This document shows positions 30,684-50,538 of a stretch of 64,000 nt of DNA, in pieces. Every line of letters starts with the position of its first letter. Positions within the stretch are counted from its first letter, which is position 1. Both the position numbers and the translations under genes were made by a program. This stretch comes from Cytophagaceae bacterium (GTDB taxonomy: Bacteria; Bacteroidota; Bacteroidia; Cytophagales; Cyclobacteriaceae). Below the pieces are notes generated by a model. The model searched no databases, was not told where the DNA came from, and was given only the letters and a program-made list of their open reading frames with translations. Location of the stretch: positions 1,833,234-1,897,233 of the forward strand of contig CP030886.1 of NCBI GenBank assembly GCA_006969745.1, read 5' to 3'.

Positions 30684-31019
30684 ATGGGAAAACATCAACT
30701 AGGAGAATTCGAAGAAGTGGTGATGCTAACAGTCGCCATTCTTACCGATGATGCTTATGGTTTCGCCATCATCGAGGAGATGGAGCAGCGCTTAAACCGA
30801 AAGGTCAGCATTGGGGCACTTCAAACGGTGCTTCGCAGGCTCGAGAAAAAAGGATACCTATCTTCTGAAATGGGGGAAGCCACTAAGGTACGAGGTGGCA
30901 AACGCAAGCGTTTCTTTCACTTGACATCAGCTGGCAAAAACATCCTGCAAGAAACAAAGGAGCAGCGACTGGGACTATGGAATGCTGTACCTGAATTCGT
31001 TGTAAAATTCAGCTACTAA
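30684..31019 (+). CDS. PadR-family transcriptional regulator (first copy)
   Basis: A 111-residue winged-helix protein starting MGKHQLGEFEEVVMLTVAIL. An in-frame ATG at 30582 would add 34 residues not seen in the family, and the -7 box lies between the two, so 30684 is chosen. The helix-turn-helix and wing are visible in AYGFAIIEEMEQRLNRKVSIG, then LQTVLRRLEKKGYLSSEMGE and the basic wing KVRGGKRKRFFHLTSAGKNIL. PadR proteins are usually repressors that bind their own promoters. This type, lacking the long C-terminal dimerisation domain, commonly precedes prefix-domain permeases (compare the Acidobacteria PadR/ADOP pairs). Three bases separate it from the first permease, so they are almost certainly one operon. 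Confidence 0.92.
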   Translation: MGKHQLGEFEEVVMLTVAILTDDAYGFAIIEEMEQRLNRKVSIGALQTVLRRLEKKGYLSSEMGEATKVRGGKRKRFFHLTSAGKNILQETKEQRLGLWNAVPEFVVKFSY

Positions 31020-31022
31020 CAG

Positions 31023-33620
31023 TTGGCGAAAAGAAAATCCATATCGCCACCACAGTGGGCCCTGCGGTTTTTCCGCTGGTTCTGTGACCCGGAATGTGCC
31101 GAGGACATTGAAGGTGACTTGTTTGAGCGCTTTGAAAAAAGGACTAATGAAAATAAATCAGCCAGGTGGCTCTTTGCTCTGGATGTACTAAAACTTTTTC
31201 GTCCGGGAATTATTAAACCGCTTTCTGGCAGTCAAAAACTAAACTACTACGGCATGTTTAAGCACAATCTGTTAATCTCATTACGAAGCTTCAAGAGGTA
31301 CAAAACCACCTTCTTGATTAATATACTGGGACTATCTACAGCTTTCGCAACTGTTCTTCTGATACATCTGTGGATAGAAAATGAGCGCTCTGTGGATGCA
31401 TTTAACACCAATGATCAGGTGCTCTATCGTGCGATGACACACTTCCAGCTGCCAGCAAAGAAAGTAACCTGGGAGTATACTTCAGGTAGGTTGGCAGAAT
31501 CTATGCTGAAAGAATACCCTGAAGTGATTCAAAGCACCCGCGTAAACAACAAGTTCTTTATCCCAAGAGGTATTGTCACCTCAAATGATCGTCATCAGGA
31601 GGTACAAGGCCAATTTGCAGACCCCAATATTTTCTCAGTGCTATCCTACAAGCTGATAATTGGTGACCCAAAAAATGCAATTCAAAACAAAGAGTCTGCG
31701 ATCATTTCAGAAAACTTGGCGAAAAAGCTTTTCGATGACTCTCAAAGTGCAATTGGCAAAACTATTGAATGGAACTGCTCTTTGTTTGATCGTTCATTCA
31801 CGATTACTGGTGTTTACGCCTCCCCGCCAAAAAATGCCACCCGTCAGTTTGATTTGATGATCAACTATGAGGTCTTGGTTGATGCCGATGCATGGGCAGA
31901 CCACTGGAAAGGTGGTTACGCCGAAACATATTTAGTGCTCAACAAAAATGTAGACTTAGCAGCTTTCAACAGAAAAATTACACATCACATTGACGATAAA
32001 ATTGGAAACGAAAAATTCACACTTTTTCTGCAGAAGTACTCAGATCGATACCTCTATGGCCAATTTGAAGATGGTGAGCTGGTAGGTGGTCGCATTGCAA
32101 ATGTGAGGCTATTCTCATATATAGCCTTATTCATAATTCTCATCGCGGTAATAAACTTTATAAATCTTTCTACCGCACAAGCTTCAACCAAGCTGAAGGA
32201 GATAGGTGTTAAGAAGGCTATGGGTGGAAACAAAAAGCAGCTGGTCTTTCAATTTCTGACAGAATCTACACTTATGTCTCTTTTCTCGATGGTGGGATCA
32301 ATCATACTGTTTTATGCTTTCCTTCCCTACTTTAACCAGCTTATTGATCAGCATCTTTCTTTTGCGATCCTTGACGTCATCCCTACCTTGCTGCTAGCAG
32401 TCATAGGCTTGGGTCTGATTGCCGGCTTGTATCCTGCATTTTACTTGTCCTCATTCAAGCCTATATCAATCATGAAGGGGAAACTCCCTTCAATGGTCGG
32501 AGAAAAATGGATGAGGCAAGGGCTTGTCATTACTCAGTTTAGCTTATCGGTGATATTTATTATCGGAATGATAGTTGTCAATGGCCAGCTAAGTTTCATT
32601 GAAAACAAACCATTGGGCTATAACCGCACAAACTTGCTAACCTTCGAGGGGAAAGGGTCGGATCAGGTAAACCCAAAAATCCTGATATCAGAAATCGAAA
32701 AAATACCTGGGGTCAAGAATGCCACAAGTATGGCTGGGCCATTTTTATGGGGAAATGACAATGGAAGTGGATTTCAGTGGGGAGGTGATCCCGCCAATCG
32801 AAATTACTTATTCAAATCACCAAAAATTGGTTACAACACCATCGAAACATTGGAGCTTAAACTAATAAGTGGAAGATCCTACAACCCTGCCTTCAATGAC
32901 GACAGAACCAAGGTGATTATAAACGAATCAGCGCTTCAAATGATGGGATTGAAGGAACCAATAGGTTTCAAATTGAAATACGGTGATGAAGAGTATCGGG
33001 AGATCATCGGTGTGGTGGAAGACTTTCAATATGGCTCTCTCCATCAACCCATCGAACCATTAATCTTTCGATTCAGAGATTGGGGTCAAAATTATATGGT
33101 AAGGATAGCTCCGGGTTCTGAATTAAGGGTAATTGAGGAAATCGAAAAGCTTTATAAAGGGGTGTATCCAAACTTCATGTTTGAATCTCAATTTTTAAAT
33201 GATGAGTATGAATTGCTCTATGCAGCTGAGCAAAGAATTGGTAGCCTTTCAGGTTATTTTGCATTGTTTGCAATCATTATTTCCTCTCTGGGCCTCCTTG
33301 GTTTGGTGACTTTCACCACGGAAAGACGTATCAAGGAGATTGGAATCAGAAAAGTGCTCGGCTGCTCTGTAGCTAAAATCGTTCTTTTACTATCTGCTGA
33401 CTTTACTAAACTCGTACTCATTGCCATCCTAATCGCAGTTCCCGTCAGCTACCTGAGTGCAAAGGAATGGCTTCAAAACTTTGCTTATCATATAGAGGTA
33501 GAGTGGTGGTATTTTGCTTCAGGCGCTGCTCTTGCATTGGTAATAGCTTGGGTTATTATCAGCACAAAAACCATCAGAGCAGCCACAGTTAACCCAGTAG
33601 ATTCATTAAAAGATGAATAG
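31023..33620 (+). CDS. ABC transporter permease with N-terminal prefix domain (permease 1, subgroup A)
   Basis: 865 residues from a TTG start three bases after the PadR stop; no in-frame ATG lies near. The layout is a cytoplasmic prefix (1-90, with FRWFCDPECAEDIEGDLFER), TM1 (~97-118), periplasmic MacB-like domain, TM2-4 (~361-485, with KLKEIGVKKAMGGNKKQLV), TM5 (~498-522), a second periplasmic domain, and TM6-8 (~740-855, with RIKEIGIRKVLGCS). It is therefore an internally duplicated FtsX/MacB permease. It ends in NPVDSLKDE, and its last eight bases contain the start of the next gene. No ATPase domain is present. Family members of this kind probably export or extrude amphiphilic or peptide compounds, but the substrate is unknown. 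Confidence 0.88.
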   Translation: MAKRKSISPPQWALRFFRWFCDPECAEDIEGDLFERFEKRTNENKSARWLFALDVLKLFRPGIIKPLSGSQKLNYYGMFKHNLLISLRSFKRYKTTFLINILGLSTAFATVLLIHLWIENERSVDAFNTNDQVLYRAMTHFQLPAKKVTWEYTSGRLAESMLKEYPEVIQSTRVNNKFFIPRGIVTSNDRHQEVQGQFADPNIFSVLSYKLIIGDPKNAIQNKESAIISENLAKKLFDDSQSAIGKTIEWNCSLFDRSFTITGVYASPPKNATRQFDLMINYEVLVDADAWADHWKGGYAETYLVLNKNVDLAAFNRKITHHIDDKIGNEKFTLFLQKYSDRYLYGQFEDGELVGGRIANVRLFSYIALFIILIAVINFINLSTAQASTKLKEIGVKKAMGGNKKQLVFQFLTESTLMSLFSMVGSIILFYAFLPYFNQLIDQHLSFAILDVIPTLLLAVIGLGLIAGLYPAFYLSSFKPISIMKGKLPSMVGEKWMRQGLVITQFSLSVIFIIGMIVVNGQLSFIENKPLGYNRTNLLTFEGKGSDQVNPKILISEIEKIPGVKNATSMAGPFLWGNDNGSGFQWGGDPANRNYLFKSPKIGYNTIETLELKLISGRSYNPAFNDDRTKVIINESALQMMGLKEPIGFKLKYGDEEYREIIGVVEDFQYGSLHQPIEPLIFRFRDWGQNYMVRIAPGSELRVIEEIEKLYKGVYPNFMFESQFLNDEYELLYAAEQRIGSLSGYFALFAIIISSLGLLGLVTFTTERRIKEIGIRKVLGCSVAKIVLLLSADFTKLVLIAILIAVPVSYLSAKEWLQNFAYHIEVEWWYFASGAALALVIAWVIISTKTIRAATVNPVDSLKDE

Positions 33621-36243
33621 ACAACCACCAAAACATTTTTTGCAATTCTTCCGGTGGTTTTGTAACCCTGATTATGTGGAAGATATCGAAGGTGACCTAT
33701 TTGAGCGCTTCCAAAAAAGGACTATTGAAAATAAATACGCCAAGTGGCTCTTTACTCTGGATGTACTAAAACTGTTTCGTCCGGGGATTATAAGACCATT
33801 TACTGGCAGTCAAAAACTAAACAACTACGGCATGATCTCTAACTATTACAAAGTGAGTATGCGCAACATACTCCGCAATAAGACATTCTCGTTTCTCAAC
33901 ATTTCAGGATTAAGTGTTGGCATTGCGAGCTGCATTTTGATTCTCATTTATGTCAACAACGAGTTGTCATACGATACCTACAACAGCAACTACGAGAATA
34001 CTTACCGGGTAATCCATTACTATGGGCAGCAAGGTGAGGAACTTGACTATGCCACATTGCCTACGAAAGAATATCAGGTTTGGGGAAATGCACCAGTAGC
34101 TCCTGCAATGCAAGACTTTTTCCCTGAGGTAGAGAAGGTATTTCGATTTACAAGCGATGCGCCTTGGCTATTCTCTTATAATGGAATAACCCACTCCGAA
34201 TCCGATGTTTTATTCGCAGACTCAACTGCTTTCGATTTATTTGACTGGAAAGTTTTAGCTGGAAACCCCGAAACAGCCCTGGTGCATCCAAACACTGTTG
34301 TTCTTACCTCAGCGCTTGCGAAGAAGTATTTCGGAGATGAAAATCCCATAGGCAAATCCATTATTATGGACAATGCTGATCCGTATGAAGTAACGGCTGT
34401 AGTTGAGATTCCAACCAATTCACATTTTAAGTTTAATGGACTAATCTCGATGAGTACCTTTAGAAGGTCGCGTCCAGGCATTTTTGATTCCTGGGGGTAT
34501 GTCGATTTCTACACCTATTTTACACTAAAGCCGGGTACCAGCATAGAGCAATTGAAAGAGAAAGTGCCTGACTTCCTGGATGCCAAGTTCACCAATCAGT
34601 TCAATTACCACCTCGCCTTCGAGCCACTTTCCGATGCCTATCTTCATTCGGATGCAGGTCGCCAGCCGGGTCCGGTTGGAAGTATGGGTGACATTTACAT
34701 TTTTACCTCAGTGGCCATATTTATTCTCCTTATAGCATGTATCAATTTCATGAACCTGTCTACCGCCCGGTCTGTGGAACGAGCCAAAGAAGTTGCAATA
34801 AGAAAAACCATAGGCTCACAGCGAAGCGCTTTGATCCATCAATTCCTAATTGAGGCGGTTCTTGTCACGTTTATTGCTTCTTTGCTGGCGGCTTTACTGG
34901 TTTTCTTTGGACACAATTTGCTAGAATTAGTTTCGGGAAAAACACTACCTATTGATTGGCTCTTTACTGCGCCCAATGCTCTGCTGGCATTTGTCGGTAT
35001 ACTCATCATTGGTATCATAGCAGGCAGCTATCCTGCTTTCGTCCTTTCTACGTTCAGACCCATTACGGTTCTTAAAGGTTCATTTAAAACTTCCTCGAGA
35101 GGCATTTGGCTTAGAAAATCTTTGGTAGTACTCCAGTTTGCTTTGTCTATTATCCTTTTGGCAGGAGCCGCTGTGGTTTCGTCTCAGCTAGATTTTCTTC
35201 AAAAGTATGATCTGGGTTTTGATTCAGAGCAAGTCTTGGTTATTGACTTTGGTTATGACAGTGAGGTGCAGCGCAAACGAGAGTACCTGAAACAGCAGTT
35301 TTTGAATCATCCTGATGTGGATATGGTCTCTGTGTCTCGCGCAACACCAGGAGATTTCTTTCCAAATGCCGGAACCGGAGTGGCCGATCCTGTTTCAGGC
35401 GAAATCACCTATAAAGGACCGGCAATCTACGAAGTGGACGAGGACTTCATACCCACCTACCAAATGAACATGGTAGCAGGAAGAAATTTCTCTGAGGATT
35501 TCCCATTAGATTCCGCTAATGCCCTGATCCTTAATGAATCTGCGGCCAAACTTTATGGTTATCCAAATCCGCAAGACGTTATTGGTAAGTCTTTCGAACA
35601 ATGGGGAAGAGAAGGTAAAGTCATAGGCGTTGTAGAAGACTTTAATTACGTGTCACTTCATGAAGACGTGGAGCCTCTTTCAATACGGTTTGGCACTCAG
35701 TACAATGTCTCGGTCATTTCTTTGAAGCTGAATAGCCAAGATTATTCAAAAACCTTGTCAGAGTTGGAGAACATATGGAATGGGGTAGTTCCTCATAGGC
35801 CATTCGACACACGGTTTGCAGATCAAAACTTTGACGCTCAATACGATGCAGATGAACGCTTTGGGATGATTTTTTCAATCTTTTCCACACTGGCAATTTT
35901 CGTTGCATGCCTTGGTCTCTTCGGACTTACCATCTATAGCACAACACAGCGCAACAAGGAAATTGGTGTAAGAAAAGTGCTTGGCGCATCTACTAGCAGA
36001 ATTATTGCACTGCTTTCCAAAGACTTTCTGGCTTTATTCCTTATCGCCTTGATCATTGCCATCCCTCTTTCCTGGTACGTTATGAATAGCTGGCTAGACG
36101 GTTTTGCTTATCGCATATCATTGGGCTTTGAAGTGTTTGCAATATCTGCACTTGTGACACTTGTTGTCGCCTTCATTACCATGAGCTTCAAGACAGTAAA
36201 TGCTGCTCTTGCCAACCCGGTAGATTCATTGAGAGATGAATAA
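33613..36243 (+). CDS. ABC transporter permease with N-terminal prefix domain (permease 2, subgroup A)
   Basis: 876 residues; the start ATG lies inside the last codons of permease 1 (8-base overlap), indicating translational coupling. The prefix (FRWFCNPDYVEDIEGDLFER) is very close to that of permease 1 even at DNA level, with about 20 differences in roughly 155 bases. TM1 (~97-120) and the duplicated TM2-4/TM5/TM6-8 plan follow, with FtsX-type loops VERAKEVAIRKTIGSQRSAL and NKEIGVRKVLGAS. The periplasmic domains share little with permease 1, suggesting a different cargo or partner. It ends NPVDSLRDE and again overlaps the next gene by eight bases. Confidence 0.88.
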   Translation: MNRQPPKHFLQFFRWFCNPDYVEDIEGDLFERFQKRTIENKYAKWLFTLDVLKLFRPGIIRPFTGSQKLNNYGMISNYYKVSMRNILRNKTFSFLNISGLSVGIASCILILIYVNNELSYDTYNSNYENTYRVIHYYGQQGEELDYATLPTKEYQVWGNAPVAPAMQDFFPEVEKVFRFTSDAPWLFSYNGITHSESDVLFADSTAFDLFDWKVLAGNPETALVHPNTVVLTSALAKKYFGDENPIGKSIIMDNADPYEVTAVVEIPTNSHFKFNGLISMSTFRRSRPGIFDSWGYVDFYTYFTLKPGTSIEQLKEKVPDFLDAKFTNQFNYHLAFEPLSDAYLHSDAGRQPGPVGSMGDIYIFTSVAIFILLIACINFMNLSTARSVERAKEVAIRKTIGSQRSALIHQFLIEAVLVTFIASLLAALLVFFGHNLLELVSGKTLPIDWLFTAPNALLAFVGILIIGIIAGSYPAFVLSTFRPITVLKGSFKTSSRGIWLRKSLVVLQFALSIILLAGAAVVSSQLDFLQKYDLGFDSEQVLVIDFGYDSEVQRKREYLKQQFLNHPDVDMVSVSRATPGDFFPNAGTGVADPVSGEITYKGPAIYEVDEDFIPTYQMNMVAGRNFSEDFPLDSANALILNESAAKLYGYPNPQDVIGKSFEQWGREGKVIGVVEDFNYVSLHEDVEPLSIRFGTQYNVSVISLKLNSQDYSKTLSELENIWNGVVPHRPFDTRFADQNFDAQYDADERFGMIFSIFSTLAIFVACLGLFGLTIYSTTQRNKEIGVRKVLGASTSRIIALLSKDFLALFLIALIIAIPLSWYVMNSWLDGFAYRISLGFEVFAISALVTLVVAFITMSFKTVNAALANPVDSLRDE

Positions 36244-38845
36244 AAGACCTCCAAAATATCCGCTTCGCTTCTTTCGCTGGTTCTGCAACCCGGACTATGT
36301 GGAAGATATTGAAGGAGATCTTTTGGAGCGCTTTGAAAAAAGGACTAATGAAAATTCGGCAGCTAAATGGCTACTTACACTGGACGTATTAAGGCTTTTT
36401 AGGCCCGGTATCATCAAAAATTTTGGTGGCACTCAAAAACTCAACAATTACGGCATGTTAAAACATTATTTAATTATCTCATGGAGAAGCCTGCTAAAGC
36501 AGAAGCTTTATGCCACCATAAATATTGGTGGATTGTCAATTGGTCTTACGTGTTTTATTCTGATATTTCTATATGTTCAGCATGAACTTTCCTACGATCA
36601 GTTTTTAGAAAATTCAAAGGATATTTATCGTGTCTATAATCATCAACCAGGCAATTCCTATATTGGTAGTGACAAATTTGCCGTCACACCTGCAGGATTG
36701 GCTACAGCACTGAAAGATCAATATCCGGAGGTAGTTTCGTCCACATCTCTAGATCACTACCGGGCATTGCTCAAAAAGGAAAATGGCTCCAGCTTTTGGG
36801 AATACGGCGTATTTGCCGATAGAAATTTCTTTCAGGTATTCCCTTATAAGTTTTTAGCAGGAGATCCTAAAACAGCGTTGAAAGAACGCCACAACCTTGT
36901 TATTACCGAATCCTTCGCCTTAAAAGTGTTTGGCCAAACGTCAGTTGTTGGTCAGACCATGATTCACAACGAAAAAAACTTAACCATTACAGGCATTTTA
37001 GAAGATCTGCCTTCCACCGCATCGGTGCAATTCGCTTTCATTGGAAATATAGAATCCAATATGTGGTACCAGGATGCCTTAGAAAAGGAAAAATGGAAAA
37101 GTAATTCTTACCAAACCTTTTTTACAATCAACCAATCTTCGGACATAAAGGCACTTGAGAAAAAGATGCCACAGCTTATAGAAAAGTATTGGGTAGATAC
37201 TGAAAAATATCCGCAGAGGTATGTTTTCGAACCCTATAGTTCGCTGCACTTACAAACTGATTTAAATTTTGATATTGGGACGAAAGGGAGCGTAAAACAG
37301 TTGGTTCTATTTTCTACAGTCGCCATTTTGATTTTGATCTTGGCGAGCATAAACTATACTAATTTAGCTATTGCCCGATCTATGGGCAGGGCCAAAGAAG
37401 TAGGCCTAAGAAAAGTAATTGGCGCTCGAAAAAGTCAGCTAACGTTTCAATTTTTGAGTGAATCCGTCCTCTTATCAATTATTGCTTTCGCAATCTCAAT
37501 GGGACTTACTTCAGTATTTCTTCCTGCATTCGGTGAGCTTGTAGGACGAGCATTGACCTTGAGTCTTGCTCAACATCAATATATAATTCCAGTGCTGCTT
37601 CTACTGGTTGTACTCTTGGGCCTTTTGTCTGGTTCTTATCCAGCCATGTATATGTCTGCCCTGATGCCGGTCAATGTGTTGAAAGGTAAGTTGGCAGGCC
37701 GGGTGTCCGGTATAAATCTGCAACAAATTTTAGTCATCGCGCAATACACCGTCTCGATTGTGATGATTATCTGCAGCTTATTAATTTATCAACAGTTTGA
37801 GTTTATCAAAAACAAAGAACTTGGTTTTGAGAAAGATCATATCCTCACAATAAGAGCGCGAAGCTCAGAGTTGAGGGAAAATCTTGAGCTTATAAAAAAT
37901 GAATGGAGAAGTAACCCCAATATTTTGGCCATCTCTGGCTCACAGAACCTACCAACAAACATCCAGCAAAGTACAATTGTAAATGATAATGAAGGAGGAG
38001 ATCCCACTGACGACCTACCCATCTATCAACTCAGAGCAGATTACGATTTCCTTGAAACATTCAAAATAGAACTTTTATCCGGGAGGTATTTTTCCAGGGA
38101 TTATGCCGATAGCATCAATTCAATTCTTATCAATGAGACCGCTTTGAAAGCCATGGGATGGACTCCGGAAGAAGCCATTGGAAATGAGTTTACGGAAGAT
38201 TGGGAGATAGGCAGTAGAAAGATCATCGGGGTATTCAAAGATTTTCACATGCACTCAATGCACATGCCCATTGCTCCGCTTTTTATTGAGCTAAGGGGTT
38301 ATAAAAATCACAGCAGATACATTTCCGTTCGAATTAGACCCGAAAAAGTAAAAGAGACAGTAGCCTACATTGAGGAAACCGTAAAGAGCTATTCTCCATA
38401 TCCTTTTGAGAGCATGTTTATTGAAGACCATTTTGATCAACTTTATCGAGAAGATCAAGAACAAGCAGAAGTCTTTAGTTTTTTTACAGTTTTATCCATA
38501 CTTATTGCCTCGCTTGGACTTTTTGGATTAGCTGCTTTCAACATTCATCAAAGAGTAAAGGAAGTGGGTATTCGTAAAACTTTAGGCGCTTCTGTCACAA
38601 GTATTGTATCTCTGGTTTCATGGGACTTCATCAAAATGGTGCTGATCGGATTTGCTATTGCAATACCAATTGCCTGGTATGCTGTGAGTTACTGGCTGAG
38701 GGATTTTGCATACCACACACCAATGGAATGGTGGGTTTTTGGAGTGGCAGGAATTTTTGCTTTGCTAATAGCATTTATTACAATAAGCTCCCAATCCTTT
38801 AAAGCTGCTCATTCAAATCCGGTAGACTGCTTAAGAGATGAGTAA
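36236..38845 (+). CDS. ABC transporter permease with N-terminal prefix domain (permease 3, subgroup A)
   Basis: 869 residues; starts within the end of permease 2 (8-base overlap). The prefix FRWFCNPDYVEDIEGDLLER is followed by NENSAAKWLLTLDVLRLFRP, the same block as in permeases 1 and 2. The duplicated MacB/FtsX plan is present, with GRAKEVGLRKVIGARKSQL after TM2 and RVKEVGIRKTLGASVTSI near the end. It closes with NPVDCLRDE. This is the last gene of the first operon; the 136 bases up to the next PadR gene show no strong hairpin terminator, only a T-run near 38863. Confidence 0.88.
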   Translation: MNKRPPKYPLRFFRWFCNPDYVEDIEGDLLERFEKRTNENSAAKWLLTLDVLRLFRPGIIKNFGGTQKLNNYGMLKHYLIISWRSLLKQKLYATINIGGLSIGLTCFILIFLYVQHELSYDQFLENSKDIYRVYNHQPGNSYIGSDKFAVTPAGLATALKDQYPEVVSSTSLDHYRALLKKENGSSFWEYGVFADRNFFQVFPYKFLAGDPKTALKERHNLVITESFALKVFGQTSVVGQTMIHNEKNLTITGILEDLPSTASVQFAFIGNIESNMWYQDALEKEKWKSNSYQTFFTINQSSDIKALEKKMPQLIEKYWVDTEKYPQRYVFEPYSSLHLQTDLNFDIGTKGSVKQLVLFSTVAILILILASINYTNLAIARSMGRAKEVGLRKVIGARKSQLTFQFLSESVLLSIIAFAISMGLTSVFLPAFGELVGRALTLSLAQHQYIIPVLLLLVVLLGLLSGSYPAMYMSALMPVNVLKGKLAGRVSGINLQQILVIAQYTVSIVMIICSLLIYQQFEFIKNKELGFEKDHILTIRARSSELRENLELIKNEWRSNPNILAISGSQNLPTNIQQSTIVNDNEGGDPTDDLPIYQLRADYDFLETFKIELLSGRYFSRDYADSINSILINETALKAMGWTPEEAIGNEFTEDWEIGSRKIIGVFKDFHMHSMHMPIAPLFIELRGYKNHSRYISVRIRPEKVKETVAYIEETVKSYSPYPFESMFIEDHFDQLYREDQEQAEVFSFFTVLSILIASLGLFGLAAFNIHQRVKEVGIRKTLGASVTSIVSLVSWDFIKMVLIGFAIAIPIAWYAVSYWLRDFAYHTPMEWWVFGVAGIFALLIAFITISSQSFKAAHSNPVDCLRDE

Positions 38846-38975: not shown

Positions 38976-38981
38976 ATAATA

Positions 38982-39317
38982 ATGGGCAGAACAAATTTTT
39001 TAGGCGAGTTCGAAGAGCTAATTCTTACTATGGTTTTGATTCTGGATGATGATGCCTACGGCAACACCATAGTGAAGGCCATCAAAGAACATCAAAACAG
39101 GGAAGTAAATCTGAGCTCAGTACATATCACCATGTATCGGCTAGAAGAAAAAGGATTTTTAGAGTCGTACATGGGTGGCGCCACAAATGAAAGAGGTGGT
39201 AGAAAGAAGCGCTATTTCAAAATCACCAATGCCGGAAAAGCATTACTCAAAGAAATGAAAGACGCCCGAACGAATCTATGGAAACTTACTCCTCAGCTAA
39301 ATTTTAATAGAATATAA
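38982..39317 (+). CDS. PadR-family transcriptional regulator (second copy)
   Basis: 111 residues starting MGRTNFLGEFEELILTMVL. It shares the LGEFEE motif and the winged-helix pattern of the other two PadR proteins in the window: AYGNTIVKAIKEHQNREVNL for the DNA-reading region, SSVHITMYRLEEKGFLESYM, and the basic wing NERGGRKKRYFKITNAGKAL. It is more diverged from the first and third copies than they are from each other, matching the divergent permease behind it. It lies 63 bases before permease 4, and this gap is occupied by a palindromic repeat pair. Confidence 0.92.
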   Translation: MGRTNFLGEFEELILTMVLILDDDAYGNTIVKAIKEHQNREVNLSSVHITMYRLEEKGFLESYMGGATNERGGRKKRYFKITNAGKALLKEMKDARTNLWKLTPQLNFNRI

Positions 39318-39324: not shown

Positions 39325-39385
39325 GTCACCCTGAACTTGATTCAGGGTCTATTTATGCAAGATTCTGAAACAAGTTCAGAATGAC
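39325..39385. repeat. Paired 26-base palindromic repeat (convergent pair) between PadR and permease 4
   Basis: Unit 1 (39325-39350) begins gtcaccctgaacttg and ends ttcagggtct. Unit 2 (39360-39385) is an inverted, slightly different copy ending ttcagaatgac. The spacer is nine bases. Each unit is itself a near-palindrome, and the pair can fold into one long hairpin. The last bases of unit 2 (atgac) contain the ATG of permease 4. Related pairs lie at 44661-44717 and 52256-52343. Confidence 0.85.
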
Positions 39386-42053
39386 TAAAGAAAACAAAAC
39401 ACCATATTGGCCAACTCGCTTCTTCGAATGGTATTGCAATCCTAGGTTGCAAGAGCAAATTCTTGGTGACCTGAACGAACAGTTTGAAGAGGATCTCAAG
39501 AATTACGGAGCACGCAAAGCGAAAGGAAGATTTGCCTGGACCGTAATTCGATTTTTTAGAAAAGACATCATAAAACCCTTCAGCGGGGGACAAAAACTCA
39601 ACTACTACGGCATGTTTAAAAACTATTTCATCACTTCTATTCGATTTATCAAACGAGAAAAAGTATTCGCTTTGATGAATATTTCAGGACTGGCACTAGG
39701 AATTGCATGTGCCCTTGTCATCTACAAAATCCTTGATCACGAATTCAGCTTTGATAAGCATCATGAAAATTATGATCGAATCTATCGGGTAAATAATGAA
39801 GACATAACCAGTCGAGGGAAAATACTATGGAAAGGCCAGGCACATCCATTGGGGCAGGCTCTACGTACCGAATTTCCCAACATCAATGCTGCGATGACTT
39901 TCTACGATGAAGACGGTCTTATCGCAGTAGAGGATGAAAGCGGTGACTTAAAGCGATTTCAGGAAGACAAAGGAGTTGCTTTCGTCGAACCACAATTTTT
40001 AGACCTTTTCACTTTAAAGTTTTTAGCCGGAGATACTGAACATGCGCTCGATGAGCGAGGTAAAGTGATTTTAACCGAATCCAAGGCGAAGAAATATTTT
40101 GGATTAACCTCCAGCACACTATCCGAGGCTATTGGCAAGTCAGTAATTCTTGAAAATGAACAAACATCCTACGTTTCAGCGGTCATCGAAGACATGCCTA
40201 AAACATCCGACTTCCCCTTTGAAGTAATCTTTCATTATAAGGATCAAGGAGCCGCAAATCCGTGGTTTTATGATGGTGAAGACTGGGGAGAATACAATAG
40301 CGCCACAAACTGCTTTATCCTGCTAAATGATGCAACAAGTCCACAAAAGTTTGAAATGCAATTGGAATCTATTGTTACAAAATACTTGCCTCCTCAAATG
40401 GCTGAAAGCAGAACCTATCGCCTTCAGGCACTCTCCGATCTACACTATAGCGATCAAATTAGAAAAACATATGCGGGCATTACTGCTACCAAAGAAGAGC
40501 TCATTGTTCTGGGATTAGTAGGTTTATTTCTCATTATCACAGCATGTATCAACTTTGTCAATTTATCTACCGCGCAAGCAGTAAAGCGATCGAAAGAAGT
40601 GGGAGTACGAAAAACTATGGGAAGCAGCAAAAGCCAACTTGTGGTTCAATTCCTTTGTGAGACGCTAGTCATCACCTTTTTGGCAACCGTAGCTGGATTT
40701 TTTATGGCTACTTTTATTGGCAATCAGGTTGAAGTCATTTTCAATGATCAAATGACCATTGACCTGCTTTCTGATTATAGCATAATTTACTTTCTGATCT
40801 CCATGGTCGTTGGAGTGACTTTGATTGCTGGCCTTTATCCTTCATTCATTCTAGCAAGAATGAATCCTGTAATGGCCATAAAAAATAATCTCAACATTAA
40901 GCAAACGTCAGGATTTCTTTCCTTGCGACGGGCGCTAGTTATTTTTCAGTTTGCCATTTCTCAGGTTCTAATCATTGGTATACTGATACTCAATGCGCAG
41001 ATGAGTTACTTTCAAAATAAAGACCTGGGATTCAATGATGACTCGATTGTGGTTGTAAAACTTCCTGAAAATGACTCTACCAATCTTAGCATACTCAAAA
41101 ATGAACTTCTGGCCCACTCATCAATTGAGCAAGTGAGTTTTAGCAGCTCAGGACCAATGGCCTCCTGGAGATCTACCAATCCAATTTTTCACCCAAATAT
41201 CGAAGGGCAAGACCTGATGGGGAACTTAAAGACTGTGGACGAAAATTACTTCGACTTGTACGAAATGGAAATTATTGCCGGAGAATCCTTCAAGTCAAAT
41301 GATCCGCGAAATCACGCGGTTGTAAACCGAAGGGTTACAGAAATTCTAGGTTTCAAAGAACCGGAAAATGCACTTGGTGAACGGATCAAATACGGACGAG
41401 GATCACTCGAATTTATCGTTGTAGGAGTGGTCGAGGACTTCCATGCCGCTTCGCTTCATCAAGATCTTGATAATGTCTTTATGGCTAACGTGTCCTGGAA
41501 CATTTTTCAGGCAGGGATAAAATTAAAGTCGAATGGGTCGTCCTTTTCTGAAATGAAAGAAACCCTAATCCACATTGAAGAATCATGGGAAAATCGATTC
41601 CCCGAACATGTTTTCGATTTACAATTTTATGACGAGACTGTCGCAAGCATGTACAGTCTGGAAGAAAGTGTATCTCAGATTTTCCGCATATTCGTCATCA
41701 TTGCAATCATAATAGGTGCGTTGGGGCTTTATGGCTTGGTTTCTTTTATGGCAAATCAAAAGACCAAGGAGATTGGCATCAGAAAAGTAATGGGAGCTTC
41801 AGAATTGGCTATTTGGAACATCTTCTCCAAAGAGCTTATATCACTAATGATGATGGCTTTTCTTATATCAGGCCCCGTTGCTTACTTTGTGATGCGGGCG
41901 TTTCTGGACACCTATGCATATAGAATCACCCTTGGCCCTGGCTTTTTTGTTATAGCAATTGTTGCCAGCTTGATAATCGCGGGGCTTACCGTAGGGTATA
42001 AGTCTTTGAAAGTGGCAAAAGCCAATCCTATATTGTCTTTGAGGGATGAGTAG
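39381..42053 (+). CDS. ABC transporter permease with N-terminal prefix domain (permease 4, divergent)
   Basis: 890 residues. The ATG at 39381 lies within the terminal five bases of a palindromic repeat. The N-terminus (MTKENKTPYWPTRFFEWYCN) has the same distance to the FFxW motif as its relatives, so this start is plausible. The prefix (NPRLQEQILGDLNEQFEEDL) differs from both other subgroups but keeps the GDL core and RKDIIKPFSGGQKLNYYGMF. The duplicated FtsX plan follows, with AVKRSKEVGVRKTMGSSKSQ and KTKEIGIRKVMGASELA. It ends NPILSLRDE. A membrane-bound LytTR regulator follows 62 bases later on the same strand. Confidence 0.88.
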   Translation: MTKENKTPYWPTRFFEWYCNPRLQEQILGDLNEQFEEDLKNYGARKAKGRFAWTVIRFFRKDIIKPFSGGQKLNYYGMFKNYFITSIRFIKREKVFALMNISGLALGIACALVIYKILDHEFSFDKHHENYDRIYRVNNEDITSRGKILWKGQAHPLGQALRTEFPNINAAMTFYDEDGLIAVEDESGDLKRFQEDKGVAFVEPQFLDLFTLKFLAGDTEHALDERGKVILTESKAKKYFGLTSSTLSEAIGKSVILENEQTSYVSAVIEDMPKTSDFPFEVIFHYKDQGAANPWFYDGEDWGEYNSATNCFILLNDATSPQKFEMQLESIVTKYLPPQMAESRTYRLQALSDLHYSDQIRKTYAGITATKEELIVLGLVGLFLIITACINFVNLSTAQAVKRSKEVGVRKTMGSSKSQLVVQFLCETLVITFLATVAGFFMATFIGNQVEVIFNDQMTIDLLSDYSIIYFLISMVVGVTLIAGLYPSFILARMNPVMAIKNNLNIKQTSGFLSLRRALVIFQFAISQVLIIGILILNAQMSYFQNKDLGFNDDSIVVVKLPENDSTNLSILKNELLAHSSIEQVSFSSSGPMASWRSTNPIFHPNIEGQDLMGNLKTVDENYFDLYEMEIIAGESFKSNDPRNHAVVNRRVTEILGFKEPENALGERIKYGRGSLEFIVVGVVEDFHAASLHQDLDNVFMANVSWNIFQAGIKLKSNGSSFSEMKETLIHIEESWENRFPEHVFDLQFYDETVASMYSLEESVSQIFRIFVIIAIIIGALGLYGLVSFMANQKTKEIGIRKVMGASELAIWNIFSKELISLMMMAFLISGPVAYFVMRAFLDTYAYRITLGPGFFVIAIVASLIIAGLTVGYKSLKVAKANPILSLRDE

Positions 42054-42943: not shown

Positions 42944-43029
42944 AATCAATAGCACTTCGCCAGAATTTTAACTTTCACTGCAGGATTTACTTTCATCCAG
43001 GTCCTCTTTTGCTTTCAAAAACAAGGACA

Positions 43030-44145: not shown

Positions 44146-44155
44146 TGCCGCCAAA

Positions 44156-44626
44156 CTATAGCCGCATTAGCTCGGTCTGATAATCAGCCTGTAAATCTTC
44201 ATGCAGGCCTGACAAGGCCTTGTTTACCCGCTTAATTTCCCGATGATAGAGATTATTGATAGTCGTATGGCGTTCGATAGCAATGCCAGCGCCCTTTATG
44301 CACTTACAAAAATACATGCGCACTTCTACCTCTGTTTGTTTTTGACCGGAATACCTCAAAGATTTGTTTAAAGTTCGGACGATTTTCTGCAGCCCTTTCT
44401 TCACATAATAAAGGTGGTCCATATTGATTTCATCCATCATGTCGTCAATATCCTCTTTCAAAAGCTGAATGTAGGATGTCTCGTCTCCAGCTTCGAAAAG
44501 TAAATAAGTCAAGAGCTCTTTGTTATCCTTTTTAAACCGTCCGAGTCGGAGGCAGATTGCCAACAGCTCCTCAGGCGTTCGCTCTTTCAACTCGTGTTTT
44601 ATATCTGCAAGGGAAGCTGCATTCAT
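44156..44626 (-). CDS. Conserved hypothetical helical protein
   Basis: 156 residues, almost entirely helical with many charged residues; it begins MNAASLADIKHELKERTPEE. The LLTYLLFEAGDETSYIQLLK segment recurs in hypothetical proteins of Cytophagales that I recall, but no domain or function is known to me. The C-terminal part has the short run RMYFCKCIKGAGI with two cysteines, which is not a recognisable metal site. It has no signal peptide and is predicted to be cytoplasmic. It is convergent with the serine hydrolase gene, ending 10 bases from its stop codon. Palindromic repeats lie 34 bases upstream of its start. Confidence 0.75.
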   Translation of the reverse strand: MNAASLADIKHELKERTPEELLAICLRLGRFKKDNKELLTYLLFEAGDETSYIQLLKEDIDDMMDEINMDHLYYVKKGLQKIVRTLNKSLRYSGQKQTEVEVRMYFCKCIKGAGIAIERHTTINNLYHREIKRVNKALSGLHEDLQADYQTELMRL

Positions 44627-44660
44627 TTTCTACTATTAAATGCCTCAAATATAAAGCATG

Positions 44661-44717: not shown

Positions 44718-44737
44718 TTGCAGCTTAAATTAATTTT

Positions 44738-44806
44738 ACTACAAATAGGAATTTATAACCAAATTTATTTTTCTTCGTAAATACTGCAAATAGGAATTAA
44801 TTATAA
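44738..44806 (+). promoter_or_regulatory. Candidate PadR operator: direct repeat upstream of the third PadR gene
   Basis: ACTACAAATAGGAATT (44738-44753) recurs as ACTGCAAATAGGAATT (44783-44798). The copies are 45 bases apart, and each is followed by TATAA within a few bases. They lie 90-155 bases upstream of the third PadR start. The core resembles the ACTACA elements before the first PadR gene. A repressor-binding role is inference. Confidence 0.4.
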
Positions 44807-44893
44807 GCGTGCCGCTTAACCCAATCCTTGAGAATAGTAACTTTAAGAAAATCAAATGGGTAGCAAAGCGCTCATTTTGAAACTTTTAAAAAA

Positions 44894-45247
44894 ATGAAAA
44901 AATTTCAATTAGGTGAATTCGAAGAGATCGTGATGCTCACGGTGGCCATTCTATATGACGATGCCTATGGTGTTTCCATCAAAAAGGAAATAGAAAACCG
45001 GCTAGGCAGAAATGTGAGCGTGGGAGCATTGCAATCGGCTTTACGTCGACTTGAGGACAAAGATTACCTGGCTTCACATGATAAAGACGCCACTCAGGAA
45101 AGAGCAGGTCGCCCTAAACGCTATTACAAAATTACCTCTCTGGGAAAGCAAGCCATGCAATACACCAAAGAGACCAGAAACTCTTTGTGGGACGCTATTC
45201 CTTCAGTTTCTCTTGATGTAAAGTTTGCCAAGTTATTCAATGCATAA
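44894..45247 (+). CDS. PadR-family transcriptional regulator (third copy)
   Basis: 117 residues starting MKKFQLGEFEEIVMLTVAIL, nearly the same opening as the first copy. The winged helix is visible as AYGVSIKKEIENRLGRNVSV, GALQSALRRLEDKDYLASH and the basic wing ERAGRPKRYYKITSLGKQAM. The C-terminus is slightly longer than in the other copies, ending KLFNA. Its final eight bases overlap the start of permease 5 (ATG at 45240), so regulator and transporter are translationally coupled. It probably represses its own operon in the absence of an unknown inducer (family knowledge). Confidence 0.92.
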   Translation: MKKFQLGEFEEIVMLTVAILYDDAYGVSIKKEIENRLGRNVSVGALQSALRRLEDKDYLASHDKDATQERAGRPKRYYKITSLGKQAMQYTKETRNSLWDAIPSVSLDVKFAKLFNA

Positions 45248-47897
45248 TCCTCCCAAACTTTTTCTCAAATTTTTCCGGTGGTATTGCCACCCACGGTTGG
45301 TCAAACCAATTGAAGGTGACCTCATGGAATTATACGAAGAAAGAGTGCAAGAGCTGGGAAAGAAAAAAGCTGATTTACAATTTATAAAGGACACGCTCCT
45401 GCTGTTTAGAAAGGACATAATTAAACCGGCAGAGGGAACACGAAAACTCAATCATTACGGCATGTTTAAAAACTATTTTAAAGTAGGGATTAGAAATATC
45501 CTGAAGTACAAAACCTTCTCATTTATCAATGTATTCGGGCTCGCTGTTGCCATGTCGGTCTGCATGTTGATCATCCTTATGCTCGCTGATCAAAAAAGTT
45601 ATGATCAGTTCCACTCAAAGAAAGACACGATCTATCGTGTTTTGGGTACACCCGAAATTGGCAGTTGGCCTTTTGCCACAGTGCCAATGCCTGTAGCTGA
45701 AACGCTCGAAGAAGAATACCCATTTATTGAAGAGGCCATCTATTTGCGAAGAGGAGTTGGCGGAGATGCGTCTATCAATCAGAAAACGGTCGAATTGAAA
45801 GGGTACTTTACCAACAGCTCTTTCTTCAGCGTATTCTCATTTCCACTCGTCGAGGGAGATAAATCGACAGCTCTTACAGCTCCTAACTCAATAGTTATCA
45901 CTAAAGAAAAGGCCTACCAGCTGTTCAACGATAAAAGTCCGTTGGGTCAGCAAGTCAAATTCGAAGATCGCGGACTACATATTTTAGACATTGAGTCAGG
46001 TAACCCTCCAGTAGATTGGGGTACATATACAGTCACGGGTGTGATTGATTTAAGTGCATACAAAACACACATAAAATTTGATGCGCTGGTTTCCTCCTCT
46101 ACTTTACCAAGACTTTACCAGGATAGCCTCATTGCCGATGTTTCAGAAAACTGGGAATATTATTGGGGAGTCTATTCCTATTTTAAAGTTGCCGAGGGCA
46201 CTTCTCATGATCAAGTGCAAAAAGCCTTATCCGATCTCTCGCTTAGGAAATATGCCGAATCAGAGGAGCTTTCTGAGTTTCAGCTTTCCGGTCAGCGACT
46301 GACCGAAATTACTCCCGGAATTCCAGTAAACAACGAAGCAACTTTCAGACTTCCTGAAATCGCCTATTATATCTTGTCAATTCTCGCGCTTGTCATCATG
46401 GTGATGGCATGCCTCAACTATACCAACCTGTCAATCGCTCGAGCCATCACTCGAATGAAAGAAATCGGGGTGAGGAAAGTAAACGGCGCAACTAGAAAAA
46501 ATCTGATTTTCCAGTTTTTGACAGAATCCGTCATCACCGTTATCATAGCACTGCTACTGGCTGCAGTTATTCTCTACTTCACCAAGGAGGCATTCATGAA
46601 CCTGTGGTTTAATAAGTACCTGAACTTTGAGCTAACCACCTCATTGCCTGTAATCGCTCAGTTTCTAGTTTTTGCAGTCATCGTAGGCTTAATCGCCGGA
46701 ACTTATCCCGCATTATTCCTTTCGAAAAGGAATCCGATCAATGCACTGAAAAGTAAAGACCTATCCAAAGGAAAGTGGGGCCTTCAAAAAGTACTTAACG
46801 TTTCTCAGTTTGTTGTATCGCTGATTTTCATCGTCACCTCAATGGTGATTTACAATCAGTTCAAACATTACACTGAGTTTGAATATGGATTTAATTCCGA
46901 AAATATAATAAACATGCCTCTCCAGGGTAATGATTACGATCTGGTCGTAAATGAACTTAGTCAGATCTCCGGTATAACTAACATTTCCGCTGTGGATTAC
47001 ATCCCTGCCACAGGTATCACCAATGTCATTGAGCTTCAAAACCAAAAAGAAGATGAAGAGCCACTGGTCTTGCTGAATTATTATGTGGATGAAAATTTCA
47101 TTGAAAACCTTGATCTAAAATTACTCCATGGCGAATCAATAACATCTTCCAGAGAAGATGGAAGATACATTCTCATAAATGAGTCTGCGGTTGAAAAACT
47201 GGGATATGACAGTCCACAAGAAGCACTTGGACAAATATGGAAATTAGACAATGATGAATCTTCAGTTCAGATCATTGGCATAGTTGAAAACTTCAGAGCC
47301 TCCCTGCTGATAAATGGTCATGAAATCAGACCAATGTCTTTAAGCACAGGAAAGGACAAATTAAACTATCTCAACGTCAGAATTTCTGAAGGAAACCCAC
47401 TGAAGACTATTGCAGACATCCAAGATCGGTGGAAGGAAATAGATCCCATTCATGAGTTCAAATATGACTTTTATGACAATGAGCTGTCGAATACCAACCT
47501 GGCCATATTTGATGTAGTCACGATAATCGGCTATATCTCCTTTCTGGCAATTTTGATTGCGTGCCTAGGGCTACTCGGGATGGCTACCTATGCGACCGAG
47601 CGAAAGACCAAAGAGGTCGGAATCCGTAAGGTGCTGGGAGCAGCTGAACTCAAGCTGGTTCTAATCCTTTCAAAATCATTCCTGACGTTGCTGGGTATGT
47701 CCATTTTGATTGCGGCACCATTGAGTTACTTCATCAATAAGCTCTGGTTGGACAATCTACCAAACAGAGTAGACTTTGGCTTTGAAACAGTCATTATTGG
47801 ATCGCTATTGATGCTCGGTCTGGGACTGTTAACGATAGGATCACAAACATTGAGAGCAGCCAGACAAAACCCGGTTGAATCACTAAAAGATGAATAG
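45240..47897 (+). CDS. ABC transporter permease with N-terminal prefix domain (permease 5, subgroup B)
   Basis: 885 residues. ATG 45240 overlaps the PadR stop by eight bases and places MHNPPKLFLKFFRWYC in register with the other permeases; the longer in-frame start at 45225 is less likely. The prefix HPRLVKPIEGDLMELYEERV, then ELGKKKADLQFIKD and RKDIIKPAEGTRKLNHYGMF, defines subgroup B with permease 6. The duplicated FtsX plan shows RMKEIGVRKVNGATRKNL and KTKEVGIRKVLGAAELKL. It ends NPVESLKDE and overlaps the next gene by eight bases. No ATPase partner is nearby. Confidence 0.88.
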   Translation: MHNPPKLFLKFFRWYCHPRLVKPIEGDLMELYEERVQELGKKKADLQFIKDTLLLFRKDIIKPAEGTRKLNHYGMFKNYFKVGIRNILKYKTFSFINVFGLAVAMSVCMLIILMLADQKSYDQFHSKKDTIYRVLGTPEIGSWPFATVPMPVAETLEEEYPFIEEAIYLRRGVGGDASINQKTVELKGYFTNSSFFSVFSFPLVEGDKSTALTAPNSIVITKEKAYQLFNDKSPLGQQVKFEDRGLHILDIESGNPPVDWGTYTVTGVIDLSAYKTHIKFDALVSSSTLPRLYQDSLIADVSENWEYYWGVYSYFKVAEGTSHDQVQKALSDLSLRKYAESEELSEFQLSGQRLTEITPGIPVNNEATFRLPEIAYYILSILALVIMVMACLNYTNLSIARAITRMKEIGVRKVNGATRKNLIFQFLTESVITVIIALLLAAVILYFTKEAFMNLWFNKYLNFELTTSLPVIAQFLVFAVIVGLIAGTYPALFLSKRNPINALKSKDLSKGKWGLQKVLNVSQFVVSLIFIVTSMVIYNQFKHYTEFEYGFNSENIINMPLQGNDYDLVVNELSQISGITNISAVDYIPATGITNVIELQNQKEDEEPLVLLNYYVDENFIENLDLKLLHGESITSSREDGRYILINESAVEKLGYDSPQEALGQIWKLDNDESSVQIIGIVENFRASLLINGHEIRPMSLSTGKDKLNYLNVRISEGNPLKTIADIQDRWKEIDPIHEFKYDFYDNELSNTNLAIFDVVTIIGYISFLAILIACLGLLGMATYATERKTKEVGIRKVLGAAELKLVLILSKSFLTLLGMSILIAAPLSYFINKLWLDNLPNRVDFGFETVIIGSLLMLGLGLLTIGSQTLRAARQNPVESLKDE

Positions 47898-50538
47898 TCA
47901 GCCACCAAAGTTTTTCCTTCGATTCTTCCGATGGTTTTGCCATCCACGTTTGGTAAAGCCCATTGAAGGAGACCTCTTGGAGCTCTATGACGAACGCGTA
48001 TTAGAGCTTGGAAAGAGAAAAGCAGATTTAAAATTTATAAAGGATGTTCTCCTCCTGTTTAGGAAAGACATCATTAAGCCATCAGACGGCACTCACAGAA
48101 TTAACACTTACGGTATGTTCAAAAATCATCTTAAAATCTCCTTTAGAAACCTGATTAAACAAAAAGGATTCACAGCAATAAACGTTTTTGGCCTTACAAT
48201 GAGTATGGCTATTACAATGCTGATTATCCTCTTCATTTTTGATCAGGATCGGCAAGACGAGCACAACCCAAATGCAGCCAAAATCTATCGCGTACTCACC
48301 GTAATCAATGATGTTGATGAAGATAAGATTCGCTCATATGGCACCTCTCCTTTTGAAATCAACCAATTGGTCCCATTCAATGTGGAGTCAGTATCTGCAT
48401 CGGCACAACTAGTCAAAACTTCCGGGCTATTGACAATAGATGAGAATGAATTTCAATTCAGCGGATTGTTTGCCTCTCCAAATTTCCTGAACTTCTTCCA
48501 TTTCGATCTGGAGCAAGGAAACAAGATGAGTGCCCTGGATGGAGAGAATAGTCTGATTATTTCCAAAGAAATGTCAATCAAAATGTTTGGAGAAAATGAT
48601 CCGCTTGGAGAAATAATTACGATTGAACGTTTGGGAGACTTTATTGTATCAGGAGTCATCGACAAGCGTAAATACAAAACGCACCTGACGTATGATTTGG
48701 TGATCCCTATCAGTGCATTCTCAAACAATGCAGAAAATGAATATTTGGTGTCCGACTGGGAAGAAGGAGCCAAAGTATTCTACAATTATTTCCACTTAAA
48801 GGGTGAATCAGACCAAATGCTTAAAAGCTACCTTTCCAGCCTAGACATCAAAATACCCGACGCGAAAAAGGGCCTTTATCGCTTTGAAACGCAGAGACTA
48901 GACCAAATAAACCTTGGGTCGCTGATCCGTAATGAAATAGGCACCACAACCCCTAATTTTGTAGCCTACTTCTTTGGCGTTCTTGGTCTGGTACTCATTC
49001 TTTCTGCCAGCTTTAACTATATGAATATGGCCATCGCGCGAGGATTAAAGCGCGCCAGAGAGGTCGGAGTTAGAAAAGTGTTAGGTGCTAATAGAAAACA
49101 GGTAATCGCCCAGTTTTTAGTAGAAGCACAACTTGTAATATTTATTTCTCTTTTATGTGCTTTTTTCCTCCTTCAGGTTTTGGTTCCGATCTTCAATGGT
49201 CTTAAGATTCTACGTGATATTGACGGTGCTATTACGATGAATTTCAATAGCGATTTTTATGTCTATATCTCATTTATCGCCTTTGCAATAATCATTGGAA
49301 TTGTTTCCGGTGTTTATCCTGCATTGTACCTTTCTTCATTTAGATCACTTTCGGTTTTAAAAGGATCGAACGGTTCCGGCAGGTCACCTTCCTTTCTGCT
49401 TAGAAAAGTGCTTGTGTTCTTTCAATATGCTTTCTCGGTGATATTCATCATCACTACAATCATCCTATACCAGCAGGCAAAGGTTTTTGATACTACTGAC
49501 TATGGATTTGAACATTCCAACATCATCAATGTACCCAAGAAGAAAAGTATTCCGTATGAGACGTTTCGAAATGAGTTGTTGAAGAAACCTCAGGTTGCAG
49601 GAGTTTCTGCCGTGTCGAACCTCCCGGTTCTATCATTTTTTGAAGATGTAGAAATAACCAACCGTTCTTCTGAGCGAGAAAATATCAAGGCTTCCATATT
49701 TTCCATAGACGCATATGTCATTGAAAACTTAGGAATTGAAATGATCGCTGGAAAGAATTTTTCATCTCGCCCACAATATGAAGTAGACCATATTATAATT
49801 AACGAAAAAGCAATGGATGCCATGGGATATCAAAATCCAATGGATGTTTTAAATAAAACAGTAGAAATACAATCAATTGATAAGAACACACGAGAAGCAA
49901 ACACTGAAAAGAAGAAGGTAATTGGTGTGGTACGGGACTTTAACTACCAATTCGTATTCATTGAAAGTGGCGCCCTAATTATGCAATATGATCCAGAATC
50001 TCTTACCACAATCAACATAAAAATCGCTGGAATTTCACCAAAGCAAGGTGCAGAAATTGTGGAATCTGTATGGAATGAATTCGACAATAATCATACAATG
50101 GATTATGAAACATATCAGTATGGAATGGAGGATATCAATGCTGAATTTTCAGAGTTGGTAAATATTGTTGGCATTGTGGGATTCATAGCAATTTTGATTG
50201 CGTGCCTTGGCCAGTTTAGCATGGTCGTGCATCATGTGGAGCTCAAGACAAAAGAAATAGGTATCCGAAAAGTCTTGGGTTCAGGCCTAAGCAGCCTGAT
50301 GGTTGGTTTATCCAAGGGCTTCATTTGGGTCATTTTAGTTGCAATTATTCTGGCTACACCATTAGCCGTTCTGATCAATATTGCCTGGACCAGCAGGGTT
50401 TATAATGCACCGGAAATTTCCGTTTATAATATCTCCTTGGGAATTGGGATTATTCTGATACTTGCTGTGGGAACGATTTACATCTTTGTATCTAAAGCAG
50501 TTCGTGCAAACCCTGTGGATTCCCTGAAGTATGAATAA
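47890..50538 (+). CDS. ABC transporter permease with N-terminal prefix domain (permease 6, subgroup B)
   Basis: 882 residues, starting inside the end of permease 5. The prefix HPRLVKPIEGDLLELYDERV and ELGKRKADLKFIKD is nearly identical to that of permease 5, while the periplasmic domains are clearly different. FtsX-type loops are RAREVGVRKVLGANRKQV and KTKEIGIRKVLGSGLSSL. The C-terminus is NPVDSLKYE, departing from the DE ending of the other five; it is the last gene of its operon and so has no downstream start to encode in its tail. A hairpin terminator follows at 50561-50583. Confidence 0.88.
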   Translation: MNSQPPKFFLRFFRWFCHPRLVKPIEGDLLELYDERVLELGKRKADLKFIKDVLLLFRKDIIKPSDGTHRINTYGMFKNHLKISFRNLIKQKGFTAINVFGLTMSMAITMLIILFIFDQDRQDEHNPNAAKIYRVLTVINDVDEDKIRSYGTSPFEINQLVPFNVESVSASAQLVKTSGLLTIDENEFQFSGLFASPNFLNFFHFDLEQGNKMSALDGENSLIISKEMSIKMFGENDPLGEIITIERLGDFIVSGVIDKRKYKTHLTYDLVIPISAFSNNAENEYLVSDWEEGAKVFYNYFHLKGESDQMLKSYLSSLDIKIPDAKKGLYRFETQRLDQINLGSLIRNEIGTTTPNFVAYFFGVLGLVLILSASFNYMNMAIARGLKRAREVGVRKVLGANRKQVIAQFLVEAQLVIFISLLCAFFLLQVLVPIFNGLKILRDIDGAITMNFNSDFYVYISFIAFAIIIGIVSGVYPALYLSSFRSLSVLKGSNGSGRSPSFLLRKVLVFFQYAFSVIFIITTIILYQQAKVFDTTDYGFEHSNIINVPKKKSIPYETFRNELLKKPQVAGVSAVSNLPVLSFFEDVEITNRSSERENIKASIFSIDAYVIENLGIEMIAGKNFSSRPQYEVDHIIINEKAMDAMGYQNPMDVLNKTVEIQSIDKNTREANTEKKKVIGVVRDFNYQFVFIESGALIMQYDPESLTTINIKIAGISPKQGAEIVESVWNEFDNNHTMDYETYQYGMEDINAEFSELVNIVGIVGFIAILIACLGQFSMVVHHVELKTKEIGIRKVLGSGLSSLMVGLSKGFIWVILVAIILATPLAVLINIAWTSRVYNAPEISVYNISLGIGIILILAVGTIYIFVSKAVRANPVDSLKYE

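Follow-up and report, generated by a model that had tools for sequence, protein, structure and literature searches.

The window analysed here is a stretch of 64,000 nucleotides from the genome of a marine bacterium, which consists of a single closed contig of 4.17 Mb. It contains an island on the plus strand, in which one PadR gene is followed by three permease genes, a second PadR gene by one and a third by two (Table 1). The tandem permease genes of the island overlap by a few bases. The start of permease 3a was assigned to the ATG at 45240, within the open reading frame beginning at 45225. All three PadRs passed the PF03551 cut-off of 27 bits. MacB_PCD and two FtsX domains were detected in all six permeases; five of them have two MacB_PCD stretches, and in the permease at 31023 only one was above threshold. 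Furthermore, the six proteins reached 43-61 bits with the prefix model NF038404 (perm_prefix_2), above its curated cut-off of 35 bits. The initial annotation had described three PadR-headed modules with three, one and two duplicated permeases, each permease with an N-terminal prefix. Modules and coordinates were correct, and the prefix with its GDL core is real.

Table 1 Genes of the island, genes between its modules and prefix-2 proteins other than permeases (positions in the window or, where named, in the locus)
Feature	Position	Strand	Remarks
PadR 1, short class	30684..31019	+	head of module 1; PF03551 45.3 bits; short-class HMM
Permease 1a, duplicated, prefix 2	31023..33620	+	NF038404 61 bits; MacB_PCD and two FtsX
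Permease 1b, duplicated, prefix 2	33613..36243	+	NF038404 47 bits
Permease 1c, duplicated, prefix 2	36236..38845	+	NF038404 54 bits; AlphaFold2 model
PadR 2	38982..39317	+	head of module 2; PF03551 39.7 bits
Permease 2a, duplicated, prefix 2	39381..42053	+	NF038404 57 bits
LytTR regulator	42116-42943		follows module 2; unrelated to the system
Beta-lactamase-fold hydrolase	43009-44145		follows module 2; unrelated to the system; Pfam-checked
Small ORF	44156-44626		precedes module 3; unrelated to the system
PadR 3	44894..45247	+	head of module 3; PF03551 47.1 bits
Permease 3a, duplicated, prefix 2	45240..47897	+	NF038404 43 bits
Permease 3b, duplicated, prefix 2	47890..50538	+	NF038404 49 bits
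174-aa prefix-2 protein with PadR	L069 1147-2004		short PadR immediately ahead; 174-aa protein 1480-2004
174-aa prefix-2 protein with PadR	L309 1148-2004		short PadR immediately ahead; 174-aa protein 1480-2004

An ABC ATPase domain (PF00005) was not found inside the island permeases. Within the island, no gene for an ABC ATPase, an adaptor, TolC or another outer-membrane component was detected either, as had been claimed. The ABC ATPase genes closest to the island are that of UvrA (54095-56890) and that of an ABC-2-like ATPase, which overlaps the gene of its own permease (57421-59495). The latter ATPase (57421-58110) was considered as a partner of the island and rejected, since its PF00005 match is weaker (73 bits) and it has a membrane protein gene of its own overlapping it. 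Beta-lactamase-fold serine hydrolases recur beside prefix-2 modules, at 43009-44145 of the window and in two further loci (L304 1-914, L310 2213-3171). This might reflect a functional relation or chance; the Pfam assignment refers to the window copy only. Elsewhere in the window, an open frame of 5814 aa on the minus strand (7378-24822) contains, as judged by eye, many repeated LamG-like and parallel-beta-type stretches; its C-terminus is similar to a sorting signal for type IX secretion. At 24978-28160 on the plus strand lies the gene of a TPR protein whose C-terminal region, likewise judged by eye, is CHAT-like (caspase-fold).

In the whole genome 36 prefix-2 permeases were counted, compared to zero in 14 control genomes. 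Together with four duplicated permeases with HAAS- or prefix-1-like N-termini and 21 without prefix, about 61 duplicated permeases are present, and the assumption that one cell carries many such systems was borne out. The expected diversity was found as well: the island permeases, for which at least three subgroups had been proposed, have bodies which are only about 27-37% identical and are scattered over the permease tree. No MacB/LolD-type ATPase adjoins any of the 61 duplicated permeases. The only ATPases close to them are a Mla-like one by the permease at 241584 and a convergent fused exporter by that at 3625328. One prefix-2 permease gene (1923477-1926102, L009), which follows an intact PadR gene, is interrupted by a frameshift and represents either a pseudogene or a sequencing error, and one short-class PadR (618566-618895, L028) has no permease neighbour.

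An AlphaFold2 model was obtained for permease 1c (36236-38842) with a pLDDT of 91.9 and a pTM of 0.88. It shows a prefix of three helices (aa 7-16, 19-39 and 43-54), followed by one further helix and by eight TM-length helices in two halves with two periplasmic-type domains. Two short coupling-type helices (aa 386-395 and 774-782) correspond to the ATPase-coupling helices of the MacB/LolCDE class. The best full-length fold match was E. coli YbbP (YbbAP, PDB 9ge6), followed by MacB halves and LolCDE. YbbAP and MacAB-TolC have the type-VII ABC architecture in common with the island permeases, but their ATPase is linked or fused and neither prefix nor PadR is present. MacB consists of an ATPase fused to a half permease with four TM helices, whereas the model comprises both halves and no PF00005 domain.

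In 19 prefixes compared, G27, D28 and E31 of the GDL core are invariant. In the known dyad of HAAS and PadR-like wHTH, membrane proteins, among them FtsX/MacB_PCD permeases, likewise carry an N-terminal helical domain in the cytosol, and this HAAS domain always adjoins a stand-alone PadR-like wHTH (PMC11237479). The logic proposed for that dyad is the same as for prefix 2 and PadR. Nevertheless, an assignment of prefix 2 to the HAAS domain was not supported. Prefix 2, with three predicted helices, lacks the GxP motif in its consensus and is combined with another class of PadR. When it was compared by HHalign with prefix 1, the HAAS-like prefix of this genome, the probability was 0.6%. A fold search with the prefix only, for which a low-confidence model was used as query, resulted in no significant PDB match.

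Prefixes and bodies were compared for 27 tandem modules from 16 genomes. Permeases with a common PadR showed 74% identity in the prefix and 34% in the body. For permeases of other modules of the same genome with equal body divergence, prefix identity was 33-45% (about 36%). The nearest prefix was that of a module mate for 54 of 59 tandem permeases; the nearest body belonged to a module mate for 23 of 59, with about 18.5 expected by chance. Of the 21 testable modules, 20 showed the same trend. In module 1 of the window, prefixes are 68-77% and bodies 30-34% identical (1a and 1b: 70% and 30%), and for permeases 3a and 3b the values are 82% and 32%.

A tree of 96 permease bodies, calculated without the prefix, was used to follow the prefix label. 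Prefix-2 and prefix-less permeases are interleaved on it, with at least 13 label changes forced by well-supported branches and 23-25 changes in the best tree. For all 41 prefix-bearing permeases of the tree a stand-alone PadR neighbour, as in the HAAS-PadR dyad, was found in the operon. This was the case for only one of the 55 permeases labelled as prefix-less, and this exception (680512-683157, L003) has an unrecognised HAAS-like N-terminus. PadR changed together with the prefix in 12 of 12 informative independent contrasts (p=0.0005). Where PadR lies directly upstream, prefix 2 goes with the short PadR class (80/80) and prefix 1 with classical PadR (17/17).

The distances of PadRs and prefixes are correlated in a mirror-tree comparison with r=0.70, or 0.66 when controlled for body similarity. 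For distant bodies r was 0.51-0.55 between PadR and prefix and about 0 between PadR and body. Along the protein the correlation to PadR amounts to 0.54-0.58 in the prefix and drops to 0.2-0.35 just beyond it. Within the own genome only, the correlation between PadR and prefix is weak (r 0.32). Using 93 pairs of foreign genomes for partner matching, the own prefix reached a mean rank of 9.1 of 30 (p<0.0005); the own body, with a mean rank of 14.8 of 30 (p=0.32), was not recovered. No significant common operator dyad was detected upstream of 32 PadR genes, and no natural PadR-prefix fusions were found in the loci searched.

Prefix 2 was also identified on non-permease proteins of 174 aa from two further families within the class (G130 and G406; Table 1). 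Judged by eye they contain about three hydrophobic helices, and the protein of L069 has a weak DUF6804 match. The occurrence of prefix 2 behind PadR on non-permeases characterises it as a portable PadR partner. It is the prefix, and not the permease body, that travels with PadR, a finding which is new here and had escaped the initial annotation. Very probably, the prefix is the cognate partner of PadR. From computed pairing and co-evolution we infer both physical contact between prefix and PadR and autoregulation.

In Acidobacteria, ADOP (TIGR03434) with padR_acidobact (TIGR03433) likewise represents large paralogous sets of duplicated FtsX/MacB_PCD permeases with adjoining PadR and no linked ATPase. 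The initial annotation had drawn this parallel, and the kind of system was recognised correctly: paired FtsX/MacB_PCD units per chain (a single MacB_PCD in 31023) and no adjacent ABC ATPase are found here, too. However, ADOP membership by curated cut-off did not hold. In the suggested HMM check the permeases matched the MacB_PCD, FtsX, prefix and ADOP models, the last with long matches of 212-300 bits, below the TIGR03434 cut-off of 622. This cut-off is exceeded by a protein in only one of 196 genomes of the family. The island PadRs scored 35-41 bits with TIGR03433 (cut-off 101.8). Hence, the permeases are described as ADOP-like. Different from ADOP, they originate from Bacteroidota and carry prefix 2, and a candidate for a shared ATPase operon was identified.

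This candidate is an operon of a DarC-like adaptor, a DarD-like ATPase (2903890) and TolC at 2902587-2906011 of the genome, with no permease beside it. Its adaptor is the sole DarC-like adaptor detected in the genome. The 30 nearest orthologues kept the adaptor-ATPase pair, in most cases together with TolC, and showed no permease; wider stretches bore this out for Ekhidna, Marinoscillum, Reichenbachiella and Imperialibacter relatives. The order is adaptor-ATPase-permease(-permease) in the orthologous operon of most of the remaining family, and likewise in that of Chitinophaga, Dyadobacter, Emticicia and Saprospiraceae. Such permease-bearing operons are often divergent from a two-component pair, identified in L285 as sigma-54 regulator and kinase. 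The own hub ATPase belongs to the sister clade of the permease-linked ATPases. On the body tree, an ATPase-linked permease is the nearest relative of several prefix-2 permeases (e.g. L175 for 31023 of the window, L168 for 1179702 and L170 for 2132852). In Runella limosa (L285) one strand carries, in succession, the adaptor, the ATPase and a permease, then a gene of 197 aa, PadR and a permease with prefix 2. A second DarD-like ATPase stands alone in the genome studied (1662580-1663242, L031); in L163, L164, L165 and L169 its relatives adjoin TolC genes in the vicinity of the DarC/DarD operon.

Permeases and hub together resemble the darobactin exporter DarB/DarC/DarD with TolC (NF038008, NF038010, NF038007), in which the duplicated permease is likewise one chain and ATPase and adaptor are separate proteins. 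DarD is the best family for the hub ATPase and DarC for the hub adaptor, but all scores are below the equivalog cut-offs (DarB 104-172 of 700 bits, DarC 202 of 450, DarD 279 of 375). In contrast to the darobactin exporter, the permeases are unlinked from the hub, and dozens of them occur per hub. One ATPase module for many membrane subunits is known from multitask importer ATPases, e.g. MsmK (PMC7658222, PMC4519317), and from ECF transporters. Here, by contrast, the permeases are of the export type and each set has a specific repressor.

Co-occurrence was examined in 177 genomes of at least 90% completeness. A DarC-like adaptor was present in all 87 near-complete genomes bearing prefix-2 permeases, and these permeases occurred in none of 31 adaptor-less genomes (p=5e-11, a value which overstates independence because the genomes are related). 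For ADOP-type permeases and adaptor, 143 genomes had both, three the adaptor only, two near-complete genomes (G183, G213) the permeases without a detected DarC-like adaptor, and 29 neither, an association which is partly expected because many adaptor operons include their own permease. In a congener (G250) the adaptor, prefix permeases and strong ADOP matches are all absent. Genomes with a near-orthologue had a median of 21 prefix-2 permeases among the matches listed, and other adaptor-bearing genomes a median of one. The unlinked, permease-less DarC-like/DarD-like/TolC operon is likely the missing motor, which is new here, and it probably energises most of these permeases. Thus, the earlier idea of a common unlinked ATPase gained strong circumstantial support and a named DarD-like candidate; physical use of this ATPase, energising by the shared hub and the direction of export are what we infer.

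The hub is not unique, as the genome contains further unlinked MacB/LolD-type ATPases (1662580, 2563830 and LolD 695084). It is unlikely that one of these, with or without the DarC adaptor, acts as the shared motor. They are of the right subfamily (1662580 DarD-like, 2563830 MacB-like) and unlinked to permeases, and relatives of 1662580 adjoin TolC genes. At the loci examined, however, these relatives lie beside TolC or alone and never beside a duplicated permease, whereas orthologues of 2903890 adjoin duplicated permeases in dozens of genomes. Alternatively, the orphan permeases could be membrane sensors without ATPase and transport, which detect periplasmic ligands or stress and signal to PadR through the prefix. 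We regard this as quite unlikely. The coupling helices are the most conserved stretches of the permeases (entropy of 1.21 and 0.87 bits vs 1.6-2.7 elsewhere), and their consensus is common to prefix-2, prefix-less orphan and ATPase-linked permeases, which favours retention of an ATPase over a role as pure sensor. The same holds for the absence of prefix-2 permeases from near-complete genomes without an adaptor-ATPase operon. Consistent with a sensor are the lack of a dedicated ATPase beside all 61 duplicated permeases and the small membrane protein with prefix 2 behind PadR. The periplasmic domains are the most variable part of the permeases, and different cargo for different permeases is plausible.

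The match of prefix and PadR could also originate solely at the DNA level, if cassettes were exchanged or genes converted at operon 5' ends without functional recognition. Prefix and PadR are neighbours in the DNA, and identical prefix residues within a module use the same codon with a frequency of 0.50 (own) to 0.59 (all), compared to 0.35-0.37 at random. This excess indicates a younger common ancestry of the prefixes than of the bodies; exchange or conversion has contributed, and gene conversion could be a partial source of the matching within operons. As the whole explanation it is very unlikely. In several prefix pairs, 77-82% of the amino acids are identical while the choice of synonymous codons is close to random (0.46 vs 0.37-0.38), suggesting selection for matching prefixes. 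Moreover, the two prefix classes pair with the two PadR classes without exception, and PadR-linked prefix 2 occurs on unrelated proteins.

We favour, as moderately probable from the sequence comparisons, self-reporting exporter sets, in which a prefix tag matched to PadR is combined with permeases powered by one shared hub. A module would consist of a short PadR repressor and one or more single-chain duplicated type-VII ABC permeases (MacB/YbbP/DarB-like), with the N-terminal cytosolic three-helix prefix as cognate binding tag for the own PadR. The permeases, without an ATPase of their own, would most likely be powered by the DarC-like/DarD-like/TolC hub. Access to the prefix would probably change when the periplasmic domains sense cargo or membrane state, or when the hub ATPase docks; PadR would then be captured or released and the expression of that permease set tuned. 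Tentatively, and with some doubt, we suggest that PadR represses its own module and is relieved via the prefix once the permease is engaged; the reverse sign is possible. It is quite possible that export is addressable, with one ATPase-adaptor-TolC hub, about 60 interchangeable permeases and a tag which insulates about 30 parallel PadR circuits. In that case each permease set would report to, and obey, only its own repressor, and the system would correspond, on the export side, to group II ECF transporters, with a barcode for regulation built in.

Orphan duplicated permeases (ADOP), their PadR neighbours and the dyad of HAAS-PadR with membrane domains are already known. For two Dyadobacter species, 28 and 33 copies of duplicated orphan permeases were reported (PMC11573002). 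In the literature searched, a permease prefix domain was not named, duplicated orphan permeases were mentioned in one paper, and PadR, orphan and FtsX-like permease were not joined. As far as this search shows, neither a swappable prefix 2 matched within operons nor a hub without permease has been described.

Both Acidobacteria and Bacteroidota possess large families of orphan duplicated permeases. For these, a named ATPase-adaptor-TolC operon and a specific swappable repressor tag are now available as targets. If the proposed working is true, it would explain how tens of parallel one-component circuits stay uncrossed in one cell. Permease repertoires could expand without new motors, and the prefix would provide a modular tag for engineering.
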